Of a stretch of DNA of 64,000 bases, positions 17,829 through 22,479 are shown piece after piece. The notes under the pieces are model-generated. The model was not told the DNA's origin. It saw nothing but the letters and a program-made list of their open reading frames with translations, and did no database searches. Numbering within the stretch: position 1 is the stretch's first letter; each line of letters opens with the position of its first letter. The stretch is from Desulfocapsaceae bacterium (lineage in GTDB: Bacteria > Desulfobacterota > Desulfobulbia > Desulfobulbales > Desulfocapsaceae): the NCBI GenBank assembly GCA_030653035.1, contig JAUSAB010000054.1:1-64000 (forward strand), in the 5' to 3' direction. The position numbers and the translations under genes were made by a program.

Positions 17829-18059
17829 ATGATCATCACCGACTGGATTCACACCATTGCCGGATTTTTAATCCTCCTCTCATTGGCCTTGGGGGTTGAG
17901 GCAAGTCCCCTCTTTCACCATCCATACTGGCTCTTTGTCACCGCCTTTGTCGGCGCCAATCTCTTCCAGTTCGGAATCACCAAATTCTGTCCCCTGGCCC
18001 TAATCCTGAAGGCCCTGGGAGTGGCCGAGGCACGGAGCTGCTGCAACACCGCAAAATAA
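17829..18059 (+). CDS. DUF2892 (YgaP-type) small membrane protein
   Basis: 76 residues with two membrane helices (about 7-24 and 34-50). The [19 protein letters not shown] stretch is characteristic of the DUF2892 domain found at the end of YgaP-type rhodanese proteins and as stand-alone proteins near sulfur genes. A Cys-Cys pair sits close to the C-terminus. The ATG at 17829 has AAAGGA upstream; a longer frame back to 17667 has none. Function unknown; a role in sulfur or thiol metabolism is only suggested by family neighbours elsewhere. Confidence 0.75.
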
Positions 18060-18066
18060 TCTCAAC

Positions 18067-18102
18067 GCGGGCTACTCATGTGGAGCCACACGAATAGCCC
18101 GC
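18067..18102. terminator. Convergent terminator-like hairpin
   Basis: GCGGGCTA (18067-18074) pairs exactly with TAGCCCGC (18095-18102), with an inner TGTG/CACA stem. It separates the convergent DUF2892 and hydA genes. A T-tract is weak on both sides. Confidence 0.5.
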
Positions 18103-18106
18103 ATGC

Positions 18107-19381
18107 TCAATGCACTGAACAGGAGATACACGGGTCATAGGCCCGTACCAGCATCTCCGCCAGCAACTCAATCTCTTTATCCTTCTTACCCTGACCTGCA
18201 CAAAAGACAGCAAGCTCCTCAATATCATGGCGGATATTGGCATGATTCTGGCTGGTGGGGATCACACAATCGGCCTTGACAACCCTGCCTGCGGCGTCAA
18301 AATGCAGGCAGTGATAGAGGATGCCCCGGGGAACCTCCACTGCCGCCACCCCAATTCCTTCCCTGACTTCAACCGCCTGCCGGGGCTCCTGCCAGGGCAC
18401 GGCCAACAGATCATCAATCAACTGCATCGATTCCAGCACCACCTGCACACATTCCACCAGCTGGGCCACCACATTCATAAAGGGATTATGATTTATTGGT
18501 ATCAGTCCAAGCTCCTTGGCAATGACTTTAGCCGCCGGCAGCAGACCCGCAAAGTTATTATTGATCCGGGCCAGGGCGCCCACGGCAAAAGATTTCCGCG
18601 ACAGACGGCTCAGTTTTGAGGTAGACCACTCGGCCATATACTCATTGGTCATGGCCGCGTACTCCTGCTCCTTTTTGACCACCCCGTCTGTGGAAATAAG
18701 ATCGCCGCCGATAAAGGGATAATCGCCATTGCCATTCAGCGATACAAACTCGGTCTCCCGCTGGAAATCAGGGATGGAAAAACTCCTAAACAGCGAGACA
18801 CTGGCGTCAAGATCAGCAAGAGAAGCCTGCAACCGCTGCCGAAACTGGCCCAGACGATACCGGTCCGGCAACATGGTAAAACCACCGACCACGGTGCGGG
18901 TAGGGTGTAGCCGGCGGCCACCGACCTCGTCACAGATATCATTGGCCAGAAGTTTGAGGCGGAGGGCCTGCTGCACCACTGCCGGATGGCTCCGGGTCAG
19001 GGGCAGGACGCTGCCGACGCCTAAGTAATCAGGGGCCGCCAGAAAATAGATATGGAGGATATGGCTCTGCAGGGTCTCCATATGTTTAAGCAAGAGACGC
19101 AAGCGCTGAGTCTGCACCGTAGGCATGATTCCAAAGCCGTTTTCCACAGCCCGGATTGAGGCCAGGGTATGGCCAATAGAGCAGATCCCGCAGATCCGGC
19201 CGCAAAGATAGGGCGCGTTCTCAAAATGCTTGCCCACCAGGATGGCCTCAAAAAAACGCGGTGTCTCCACTACTTCCCAGCTGGCCTCCCGCACTTGGCC
19301 GTCCTGAATGACAATGCGGATATTGCCGTGCCCCTCCACCCTGGTCAGATGCTTGATATCAATATCACAAGAGATCTTCAT
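18107..19381 (-). CDS. hydA: NiFe hydrogenase large (alpha) subunit, sulfhydrogenase type
   Basis: 424 residues. It carries the NiFe active site of a cytoplasmic group 3b-like hydrogenase/sulfur reductase. The N-terminal ligand motif GRICGICSIGH gives Cys64 and Cys67, and the C-terminal motif DPCISCSVH gives Cys418 and Cys421. The protein ends at His424, directly after that motif, so there is no C-terminal peptide for a maturation protease to remove. The ATG at 19381 overlaps the hydD stop by four bases; an in-frame extension to 19606 is only the read-through of hydD. It is the last gene of hydB-G-D-A, the order known from Pyrococcus sulfhydrogenase. Confidence 0.93.
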   Translation of the reverse strand: MKISCDIDIKHLTRVEGHGNIRIVIQDGQVREASWEVVETPRFFEAILVGKHFENAPYLCGRICGICSIGHTLASIRAVENGFGIMPTVQTQRLRLLLKHMETLQSHILHIYFLAAPDYLGVGSVLPLTRSHPAVVQQALRLKLLANDICDEVGGRRLHPTRTVVGGFTMLPDRYRLGQFRQRLQASLADLDASVSLFRSFSIPDFQRETEFVSLNGNGDYPFIGGDLISTDGVVKKEQEYAAMTNEYMAEWSTSKLSRLSRKSFAVGALARINNNFAGLLPAAKVIAKELGLIPINHNPFMNVVAQLVECVQVVLESMQLIDDLLAVPWQEPRQAVEVREGIGVAAVEVPRGILYHCLHFDAAGRVVKADCVIPTSQNHANIRHDIEELAVFCAGQGKKDKEIELLAEMLVRAYDPCISCSVH

Positions 19382-20187
19382 CTTCCGTCCTCCTTCTTGC
19401 CTTTGACCTCGGCGACAAAATCGGCAAAGCCGCCAAAACATTCCAGTCGATCCATCATCCGCTCCGGGGAAATCCCCCTTTCCGCCATGATGATCTGCAA
19501 CCGGGCAAGATTGGCCTCGGGCGCCGGCCCGCGGCAGCCCCAGCAACCCAGACGGTTGGAAGGGCACCAGGCATCGCAGCCGGCCCGGGTCACCGGCCCT
19601 AGACAAGGCTCGCCCAGATCAAAGAGGCAGATATTCTCTCGGGCCTTACACTCCATGCACACCGGGTATTGAGGGTGATGGATCTCTTCACCCAGGACCA
19701 GAGCGGTAACGATCCGCTCCACCTCCTCCTTCTTGATCGGACAGCCATAGATCTCCAGATCCACCTTAATGACCGCGGAAAGAGGTTTTACTTCCTGGGT
19801 GTCGATAGGAAAAGAGCTATAGACCTCTTTTTTCACCCACTCCAGATCATTAAAACGATTCTTCAACTGGTTGACCCCGCCAAAGCAGGCACAACTGCCG
19901 AGGGCCACCACCAGCTTCGCCTTTGCACGAATATTTTTGAGCCGCTCTTCTTCATCAGCCCGGGTAATAGAGCCCTCAATAAAGGCAATCTCATACTCAT
20001 CACCCGCTTCCTTCATCCCCTCCCGAAAACGAACAATCTCCACCAGCGAGAGGAAATCAAGCAGGGTCGCCTCGTTATTGAGCAATTGAAGCTGGCAGCC
20101 TTCGCAGGAGCTTAACTCAAAAAAGCCCACCTTGGGCCTGGCCACCGGGACCCCCAAAAATGTTTTATTCGTCGTCATCTCAGACAC
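19378..20187 (-). CDS. hydD: NiFe hydrogenase small (delta) subunit, sulfhydrogenase type
   Basis: 269 residues. It carries the iron-sulfur relay between the NiFe site and the flavin subunit. Cluster ligands are visible as SSCEGCQLQ (Cys28, Cys31), GSCACFGG near residue 96, and a Cys-rich segment (CMECKARENIC, GCDAWCPSNRLGCWGCRG) that binds the medial and distal clusters. There is no twin-arginine signal, so the enzyme is cytoplasmic, as expected for group 3. An AGGTG ribosome binding site precedes the ATG. A 163-bp gap with a large hairpin separates it from hydG. Confidence 0.93.
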   Translation of the reverse strand: MSEMTTNKTFLGVPVARPKVGFFELSSCEGCQLQLLNNEATLLDFLSLVEIVRFREGMKEAGDEYEIAFIEGSITRADEEERLKNIRAKAKLVVALGSCACFGGVNQLKNRFNDLEWVKKEVYSSFPIDTQEVKPLSAVIKVDLEIYGCPIKKEEVERIVTALVLGEEIHHPQYPVCMECKARENICLFDLGEPCLGPVTRAGCDAWCPSNRLGCWGCRGPAPEANLARLQIIMAERGISPERMMDRLECFGGFADFVAEVKGKKEDGR

Positions 20188-20295: not shown

Positions 20296-20352
20296 AGGTG
20301 CCGTAAGCTCAAAGAGCAAGAAAAAGCCCTTGCTCTTTGAGCAACGGCACCT
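20296..20352 (-). repeat. Long intercistronic hairpin between hydG and hydD
   Basis: AGGTGCCGT (20296-20304) pairs with ACGGCACCT (20344-20352), and CTCAAAGAGCAAG (20308-20320) pairs with CTTGCTCTTTGAG (20329-20341), both perfectly. Three bases on one side and two on the other are unpaired. It overlaps the hydG stop codon and has no T-run, so it looks like an RNA stability, processing or attenuation element, not a simple terminator. Confidence 0.8.
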
Positions 20353-21229
20353 AAATAGCCTCCTTCAGATTCAACACCGACCAGTAATCAAAGACCGGAC
20401 CATCGAGACAGGTATAGGTGGAACCGATATTACAACGGCAACACTTGCCCCGGCCGCAGTGCATCCGCCGCTCCAGCGAGACAAAGATCTTTTCCACCGG
20501 CACCCCGGCGCTGATCAGCAGCTCACAGACAAAACGAAACATGACCGGTGGGCCACAGACAATGACGCTGGTATGCTCCCGAAAACGATCAGGGACACTA
20601 TCGGCAATACGCTGTTTCAAAAGCTCGGTAATCAACCCGACCGGCCCCTGCCATCCCGGTTCTTCTCTGTCAACAATGATATTGAGCCCCACATCAAACT
20701 GCCGCCACATGGCATACTCATAACCAAAAAGCAACTCAGAAGGTCGGCGCGCCCCATACATAATATCCACCTGACCATAACGGCTGCGCTTTTCGAGCAC
20801 CGCCAGGATGGGAGAGCGCAGCGGCGCAATCCCCAACCCCCCCGCAATAAGCAGGATATCCTCACCCTCCATCTTCTCCACCGGAAAATGGGTGCCAAAA
20901 GGGCCGCTGATGCCGACTCTCGTTCCCCGTCCCACCCGATCGAGAAACCTGGTCATATTGCCGGCAGCCCGGATGCACAGTTCCAGATCACCATGGCGGA
21001 CCGGAGATGAAGAGATCGAAAAGGGGGCATCACCAATCCCCGGCAGCTCCAGCATGACAAACTGCCCCGGCTTGAAGATGAACTGCTCTCGTTCCACTGG
21101 GTCAACAAGCTGGATCTGATAAAGCTTTTCCATCCTGGTCAAGGGATAGACATTGGTGATCTCAGCCTTGTAGGAGTATTCAAACTGCTCGCCTGCAACA
21201 GGCTGGATAAAATCAAGTTCGGTTTTCAT
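20351..21229 (-). CDS. hydG: Sulfhydrogenase gamma subunit, FAD/NAD(P)-binding
   Basis: 292 residues, ferredoxin-NADP reductase-like. The FAD-binding barrel has FKPGQFVMLELPGIGDAPFS near residue 53, and the NAD(P)-binding half starts at LLIAGGLGIAPLRSP near 128. A C-terminal [2Fe-2S] segment has four cysteines (CGRGKCCRCN and the later TYTC). It passes electrons between NAD(P)H and the hydrogenase clusters. An AGGAG site lies seven bases before the ATG. It is flanked upstream by a repeat-like insertion and downstream by a strong hairpin, both unusual inside a hyd operon. Confidence 0.92.
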   Translation of the reverse strand: MKTELDFIQPVAGEQFEYSYKAEITNVYPLTRMEKLYQIQLVDPVEREQFIFKPGQFVMLELPGIGDAPFSISSSPVRHGDLELCIRAAGNMTRFLDRVGRGTRVGISGPFGTHFPVEKMEGEDILLIAGGLGIAPLRSPILAVLEKRSRYGQVDIMYGARRPSELLFGYEYAMWRQFDVGLNIIVDREEPGWQGPVGLITELLKQRIADSVPDRFREHTSVIVCGPPVMFRFVCELLISAGVPVEKIFVSLERRMHCGRGKCCRCNIGSTYTCLDGPVFDYWSVLNLKEAI

Positions 21230-21441: not shown

Positions 21442-22479
21442 TCACTTGCTGGCCCGGACACTGGCTATTACCTCCGGCACCGTGATATGTGCCAGGCAGG
21501 ACTGACCGCAACGGCCACAACCCACACATAACGACTCCTCAAAGGCCTCCACAAAACCCCGGTGTTTATGGTAATAGCGATACTTCAACCGGGTATGGCT
21601 CTCAGGCCGGAAGTTATGACCGCCCGCAACGACGGCAAAATCGAGGAGATTGCAGGAGTAGAGCTGCTTCTCTTTGCGGGCATGGGTAAATACCATATCC
21701 ACATGTTCTTCCACCCCATAACAGTAACAGGTGGGACAGACCTGGGCGCAAGTCCCGCAGGAGAGACATTTCTCCCCCCACTCCTTCCAGACCGGGGCCT
21801 GAAACTCCAGATCAAGGATCTTGGTCAGATCGGAGGTATCAACATGGGCAACAAACTGAGATTCTTTTGCCTCCATCTCATCCAGATACCGGCGATGCTC
21901 ACTGCTGTCGGGCTCGCGGCAATCAATCTGCTCCAACAGGTGAAAGGCCCGAGACGACAGAATCTCGGCAAAATAGAGATCATCCATCCGCGTCAGAAAG
22001 AGATCAAACCCCCGCAAGGCTGAATCAGTCCCCATTGACTTGCAAAAGCAGTACGGCTGCGGGTTACAGGAATGGCCGACAATAAACATATTGGCCCGCT
22101 TCTCCCCATAAAAGGGGTTGGGATACCGGCCTCCAAGCAGGACCTTGTCCAGTTTGTTCAGGGCGTTGATATCACAAGAATGTAGACCAAAGAGAACCAG
22201 CGGCGCATAGGCCCCATAATCCACCTCTTTGTGCCAATCACCATCCTGAACGGTAAAAGAGCAGAGATCCTCGCGATAGGGCAGAAAATAATTCTTGGCC
22301 GAATGGATAGTCTGCGTATAATCAAGACGCAGATCCGAAAAATCATGCACTACTCCAAAGTCATAGAGAGAACGGCCGTGCTGATCTTCCCCCTTTTTTA
22401 CCGGCCCGACAATCCTGTTAGCCGCCAGGATCTGAAAAAGACGAATCAGCTCAACCACCGGAAAAACCTTAAATAACAT
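21442..22479 (-). CDS. hydB: Sulfhydrogenase beta subunit, 4Fe-4S protein
   Basis: 345 residues. Two C-terminal ferredoxin-type cluster motifs (CLSCGTCAQVCPTC and CVGCGRCGQSC) and extra cysteines near residue 135-145 (SCNPQPYCFC) match the HydB/anaerobic sulfite reductase A family. It is the proposed polysulfide or sulfur-reducing partner that also relays electrons. GGAGG precedes the ATG. It starts the hydB-G-D-A set, 26 bp after the dikinase-like gene, so the five genes may be co-transcribed. Confidence 0.92.
   Translation of the reverse strand: MLFKVFPVVELIRLFQILAANRIVGPVKKGEDQHGRSLYDFGVVHDFSDLRLDYTQTIHSAKNYFLPYREDLCSFTVQDGDWHKEVDYGAYAPLVLFGLHSCDINALNKLDKVLLGGRYPNPFYGEKRANMFIVGHSCNPQPYCFCKSMGTDSALRGFDLFLTRMDDLYFAEILSSRAFHLLEQIDCREPDSSEHRRYLDEMEAKESQFVAHVDTSDLTKILDLEFQAPVWKEWGEKCLSCGTCAQVCPTCYCYGVEEHVDMVFTHARKEKQLYSCNLLDFAVVAGGHNFRPESHTRLKYRYYHKHRGFVEAFEESLCVGCGRCGQSCLAHITVPEVIASVRASK

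Follow-up and report, generated by a model that had tools for sequence, protein, structure and literature searches.

The large subunit of a group 3b [NiFe]-hydrogenase, encoded by the gene hydA in a 64,000-nucleotide stretch of the genome of a Desulfocapsaceae bacterium (the window), ends at its C-terminal ligand motif without the usual maturation peptide (tail). Very probably, this protein is translated at its mature length and matures without a proteolytic step, a reading carried by the endpoint, its conservation, repeated losses of the tail and co-absence of the protease gene, from which the chemistry is deduced. The features concerned are:

18107..19381, minus strand: hydA, large (alpha) subunit of a group 3b [NiFe]-hydrogenase, 424 aa, stopping at His424
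18107..18136, minus strand: C-terminal motif DPCISCSVH followed by TGA, with no maturation peptide
19378..20187, minus strand: hydD, delta (small, Fe-S) subunit, overlapping the start of hydA
20351..21229, minus strand: hydG, gamma subunit, FAD/NAD(P)-binding
21442..22479, minus strand: hydB, beta subunit, Fe-S
18065..18104, minus strand: terminator-like 18-bp hairpin, two bases past the hydA stop, between hydA and a convergent gene for a small membrane protein

The hydA gene starts with ATG at 19381 and encodes all four cysteine ligands (RICGIC at residues 62-67 and DPCISC at 416-421). As claimed in the first-pass annotation, the frame ends directly after DPCISCSVH, which is encoded by 18136-18110 on the minus strand and followed by the TGA stop at 18109-18107. 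The same annotation had placed this end at the last ligand; the lack of an extension holds, but the last metal ligand is Cys421 and the chain ends three residues further on, at His424. His424 corresponds to the residue behind which the processing cut is made in large subunits, in agreement with the alignment to Pyrococcus chains.

In group 3b (HydBGDA or sulfhydrogenase type), a C-terminal extension cleaved by an endopeptidase is common without being a defining feature, and hydA has none. In regard to the identity of the enzyme, hydA is the last gene of an operon with the order beta-gamma-delta-alpha, which includes the flavin/NAD(P)-binding gamma subunit, and models of the sulfhydrogenase delta, gamma and beta subunits are the best or second-best matches of the adjoining genes. 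All four genes score under the curated cut-offs of the sulfhydrogenase subunit models, and since hydA reaches 279.5 bits against the HydA equivalog model with a cut-off of 880, it belongs to the same group without being an equivalog. Assignment to group 3 is based on the PDB matches and the operon, and the tree, built without sequences of groups 2b, 2d, 4c, 4e and 4g, nests hydA among tailed 3b-like sequences. The hairpin located 3′ of hydA has a folding energy of -31.6 kcal/mol (z -6.1). A YgaP-like gene for a small membrane protein (76 aa, window 17829-18059) is convergent with hydA, and the hairpin in the short gap between the two could terminate both.

The best PDB matches of the hydA product are the alpha chains of the cytosolic hydrogenases of Thermococcus kodakarensis and Pyrococcus furiosus (SHI/HyhL; E about 5e-76), followed by MvhA (E 6e-46). 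In the alignment with 9e15_B, the 424-residue P. furiosus SHI alpha chain, the last residues of both proteins coincide, and the 428-residue P. furiosus entries 5yxy and 9nez continue four residues past the end of hydA. We infer that the shorter SHI chain is the processed form; in that case the endpoint of hydA coincides with that of the processed enzyme. An AlphaFold model built from 14 sequences (pLDDT 80, pTM 0.86; weak regions with pLDDT <50 include residues 1-19 and 422-424) resembles the P. furiosus SHI chains best, with TM 0.86-0.87.

If no tail is made, no protease should be needed for it, and the gene content of the genomes is informative here. The source genome, 99.99% complete, carries one HycI-family protease (PF01750) and two NiFe large subunits, the second of which is group-1-like and ends in DPCIACAVH-MLDPEGKETIKVKAL, an extension of 15 residues. 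A search for the matching endopeptidase gene, proposed in the first-pass annotation, thus led to a different enzyme: the sole protease lies in the cluster of this tailed group-1 hydrogenase, together with a Tat small subunit, cytochrome b, hypF, hypC, hypD, hypE and a HypB-like gene. Judging from this operon and the extension, the protease presumably serves the separate group-1 hydrogenase. Between hypC and hypD, the same cluster contains a gene (L225:13938-14957, on G000:C71) whose product has an AbiTii domain of the abortive-infection type.

Among 295 Nitrospirota genomes searched, 141 had a match and 138 were scored; a partial gene (G390) and a gene with an internal stop (G582), both tailed and accompanied by a protease, were left out together with G511, which has a 3c-like match only. 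Another hydrogenase was counted as strong at E <1e-50 against PF00374 and the protease was recognized by PF01750, so that weaker types (3c, group 4) may occur in genomes termed 3b-only. Where a tailed 3b subunit was the only strong NiFe match, the protease was present in 48/48 genomes, and where the only strong match was a tail-less one, a HycI-family protease was found in 0/8. With another strong hydrogenase in the genome, the protease accompanied 49/50 tailed and 32/32 tail-less 3b subunits, the one exception being G389, a tailed genome of 1.6 Mb with no protease detected. The Fisher test on the 3b-only genomes gives p 7e-10 with kinship ignored. In independent tree pairs, tail and protease agree in 2/2 (p 0.5), and, among tail-less genomes, the presence of another hydrogenase and of the protease agree in 5/5 (p 0.06), both numbers of pairs being too few for 0.05. 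Furthermore, a protease gene lies just downstream of 75/144 tailed and 0/103 tail-less genes, as found with an own-built profile for flanks of at least 900 bases and with 3c-like sequences included in the tailed set.

A similar distribution was seen in the order of the source genome, Desulfobulbales, where 10 of the 65 genomes with a tail-less 3b subunit are without the protease. No second strong NiFe match occurs in four of these ten; the remaining six contain seven additional full-length large subunits, every one of which likewise ends at His. A long-type group-1 match (E <1e-180) is present in 50 of the 55 genomes that combine a tail-less 3b subunit with a protease. Among the remaining five, G247 carries a group-1 subunit with a tail, and G252, G270 and G284 each have the protease and a 3c-like match on one contig; in G222 no explanation for the protease was found among the matches. 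In the set of named genomes the protease is present in 17/20, and the three without it (the genomes of L006, L014 and L016) are all tail-less. Taken together, gene content suggests that the presence of the protease follows that of an extension, and that genomes with nothing else to cut tend to be without the protease gene.

One alternative is that the protease remains necessary, acting on the large subunit as a chaperone or checkpoint by binding rather than by cleavage. In T. kodakarensis a single protease serves both the 3b and the 4d enzymes, and the same paper describes binding of a protease to a large subunit without the peptide and suggests a role beyond cleavage (PMC7654741); the source genome does carry one protease as well. 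However, such a requirement is difficult to reconcile with the eight 3b-only Nitrospirota and the ten Desulfobulbales genomes that possess a tail-less 3b enzyme and no HycI-family protease, or with the lack of a protease gene just downstream of any tail-less gene, and we consider it very unlikely.

Within Desulfobulbales, 65/70 genomes are tail-less and 5 are tailed; 146 genomes were searched and 79 had a match, and the nine left out comprise two truncated genes, one split gene and six genomes with weaker 3c-like matches only. Elsewhere, tail-less sequences account for 1/31 in the rest of Desulfobacterota (31 of 38 other matches read), 40/139 in Nitrospirota and 4/48 in Planctomycetota (48 of 71 matches read). 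Six 3c-like sequences, with tails of 24-26 residues, were kept out of these counts, and four of them form the outgroup of the tree. The comparison of C-termini that the first-pass annotation had recommended therefore places tail-less 3b enzymes mostly in the order of the source genome and in one set of Nitrospirota. In total, 303 distinct sequences were extracted from the fetched loci, six of them 3c-like and 297 of group 3b; among the latter, 116 (the one studied here included) end at His and 181 continue for 4-21 residues past it. The earlier claim that no cleavage is needed, and that this is unusual for group 3b, is accordingly supported at the level of sequence.

Phylogenetic trees were calculated as a fast tree of 303 sequences and a careful tree of 87, of which 18 are tail-less. 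The presence or absence of the tail needs four changes on both trees; on the careful tree well-supported branches force at least four, with a 5-95% range of 4-4 over 200 bootstrap trees. A single loss was rejected, as 0/200 bootstrap trees have one origin. Since the outgroup is tailed, the four changes, two of which rest on one genome each, are read as losses:

Loss 1, clade A: Desulfobulbales, Nitrospirota (one of the genomes being filed under Nitrospira) and a small number of Planctomycetota
Loss 2, clade B: Nitrospirota, with endings DPCFSCSVH or DPCLSCSVH
Losses 3 and 4, single genes: L149 (ending SSH) and L153 (ending AVH)

Since clade A is found in three phyla, its genes have probably been transferred between them. 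The two main tail-less clades, although independent, have three residues in common that look convergent: Arg77 is found in 113/114 of their sequences together vs 6/181 tailed ones, Glu238 in 113/114 vs none, and Val423 in 114/114 vs 35. Such residues could possibly represent compensating changes. With 22 and 20 unusual columns in the two clades, one or two of the matches may be coincidental. Both singleton losses are without Arg77 and Glu238, and for these reasons no mechanism is claimed from the shared residues.

Tail-less 3b hydrogenases could also be decaying or inactive enzymes, and loss of function was indeed raised for Nitrospirales 3b enzymes without a protease (PMC12342949). Against this, the four cysteine ligands are invariant across the 14 aligned family members, no internal stops occur in the tail-less matches listed, and the tail-less clade extends over three phyla and 65/70 of the Desulfobulbales genomes read; decay is considered very improbable.

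Finally, the endpoint itself is genuine. Of 19 named relatives whose C-terminus could be read, 16 share the endpoint of hydA (a 20th is cut by a contig end), and in three Bipolaricaulota relatives (48% identity) the motif is followed by HLDVEFVE. The 116 tail-less sequences use all three stop codons (TGA 56, TAA 32, TAG 28). A typical extension motif is in frame in 148/187 tailed genes, six 3c-like ones among them, and in other frames behind tail-less genes it was met in 2/232 readings vs a background of 1/374 in tailed controls; the hidden frameshift that the first-pass annotation had named as its possible refutation was looked for and not found. Although the source genome is a draft (118 contigs) and the hydA stop is a TGA, an artefact or recoded codon concealing a tailed protein is practically negligible as an explanation and was ruled out, given an endpoint common to 116 distinct sequences with three different stops, relatives from separate assemblies that share it, and extension motifs in other frames at such a low frequency.

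In regard to the mechanism, the tail is described as holding the active site open until nickel is in, after which the protease removes it (PMC12134894). A model for the process without a tail is offered by Ralstonia, where HoxG made without its extension retains equal specific activity and a normal cofactor, with membrane content about 45% lower, and where the regulatory hydrogenase, naturally tail-less, apparently has intrinsic proofreading (PMC7294309). By analogy, and starting from sequence and gene content, the 3b enzyme of hydA most likely matures like these tail-less Ralstonia enzymes. Cofactor insertion and closure of the site would then take place without proteolysis, and it would fall to the large subunit, or to its interface with the small subunit, to check that the cofactor is complete, as proposed for the Ralstonia regulatory hydrogenase.

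A second kind of tail-less enzyme was observed in the protease-less Desulfobulbales. Seven group-1 large subunits (L330-L334, L336 and L341, from G277, G272, G255, G223, G234 and G228) end in DPCxACA[VI]H with no extension, and no HycI-family protease was detected in these genomes. They are kin of periplasmic [NiFe]/[NiFeSe] enzymes (L333 was tested), and a Tat signal of the RRxF type is present on the small subunit in 6/7 of these loci. Export without a maturation tail thus seems to occur as well. The C-terminal checkpoint might then be optional and easily lost, and not central to maturation: at least four losses are counted in group 3b, and some lineages also have tail-less Tat-exported group-1 enzymes and have discarded the endopeptidase, so that proofreading would reside within the subunits. 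We favour this broader view only slightly.

Group-1-like large subunits of another type were noticed in Nitrospirota, with in-frame TGA at the N-terminal ligand motif and a C-terminal motif that keeps its cysteine and its extension:

G378:C11:112405-113949: L327
G349:C80:12242-13792: L328
G539:C10:29687-31225, minus strand: L329

Two of the three read QRI-U-GV-U-TTVH, with TGA at both cysteine positions, and one reads QRFCGV-U-TTVH; many other Nitrospirota large-subunit matches show 2 in-frame TGA, and others 1. In a 2026 selenoproteome review (PMC13188914), hydrogenase alpha subunits are listed with a single selenocysteine, placed in a UxxC motif. Sequences of the L327-L329 type are possible hydrogenases with two selenocysteine ligands.

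Natural tail-less large subunits have been listed for groups 2b, 2d, 4c and 4e (PMC7294309, PMC12134894) and for 4g (PMC7294309 only), and 3b is not among them in the text available from these sources. Likewise, no report of a tail-less 3b enzyme was found in the accessible parts of the open-licence PMC literature searched on tail-less enzymes. Related to this, Nitrospirales genomes, some of them closed, were described in 2025 as containing a 3b enzyme as their sole hydrogenase, without any maturation protease, for which an alternative process or loss of function was proposed (PMC12342949); the term "C-terminal" has no counted use in that paper. Loss of the tail may explain these hydrogenases and is a candidate answer to the puzzle of an alternative route or a dead enzyme. 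Many Nitrospirota 3b subunits are tailed and have weakly scoring proteases, so missed proteases are another explanation for those genomes. Within group 3b, the two tail-less clades and the two singletons, with the protease co-absent, represent natural experiments on the function of the tail, and, if the reading is true, heterologous expression of an NAD(P)-linked hydrogenase of this kind would require one gene fewer.

The hydA product can finally be compared with known systems. Its translated end is the mature large-subunit end, as in the known tail-less groups 2b, 2d, 4c, 4e and 4g. With P. furiosus SHI HydA and T. kodakarensis HyhL it shares the fold, the DPCISCSVH motif, the best sequence and structure match and related operon subunits, but deposited versions of those proteins run four residues beyond His and the enzymes are processed. 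The regulatory, H2-sensing hydrogenases of groups 2b and 2d (HoxC/HupV) belong to another phylogenetic group and act as sensors, unlike the enzyme of hydA, which is predicted to be of the NAD(P) type with four subunits. What they have in common with it is a large subunit naturally without extension, with Hyp maturation that proceeds without cleavage (PMC7294309). The CO-dehydrogenase-linked and Ech hydrogenases (4c, 4e) and group 4g are likewise described as tail-less (PMC7294309; for 4c and 4e also PMC12134894), yet they belong to phylogenetic group 4. A further parallel is the engineered Ralstonia eutropha HoxG-proc, a pre-processed large subunit that ends at the mature His and is active (PMC7294309); this protein is man-made and obtained in lower yield, whereas the tail-less 3b subunit is natural and fixed in a clade.
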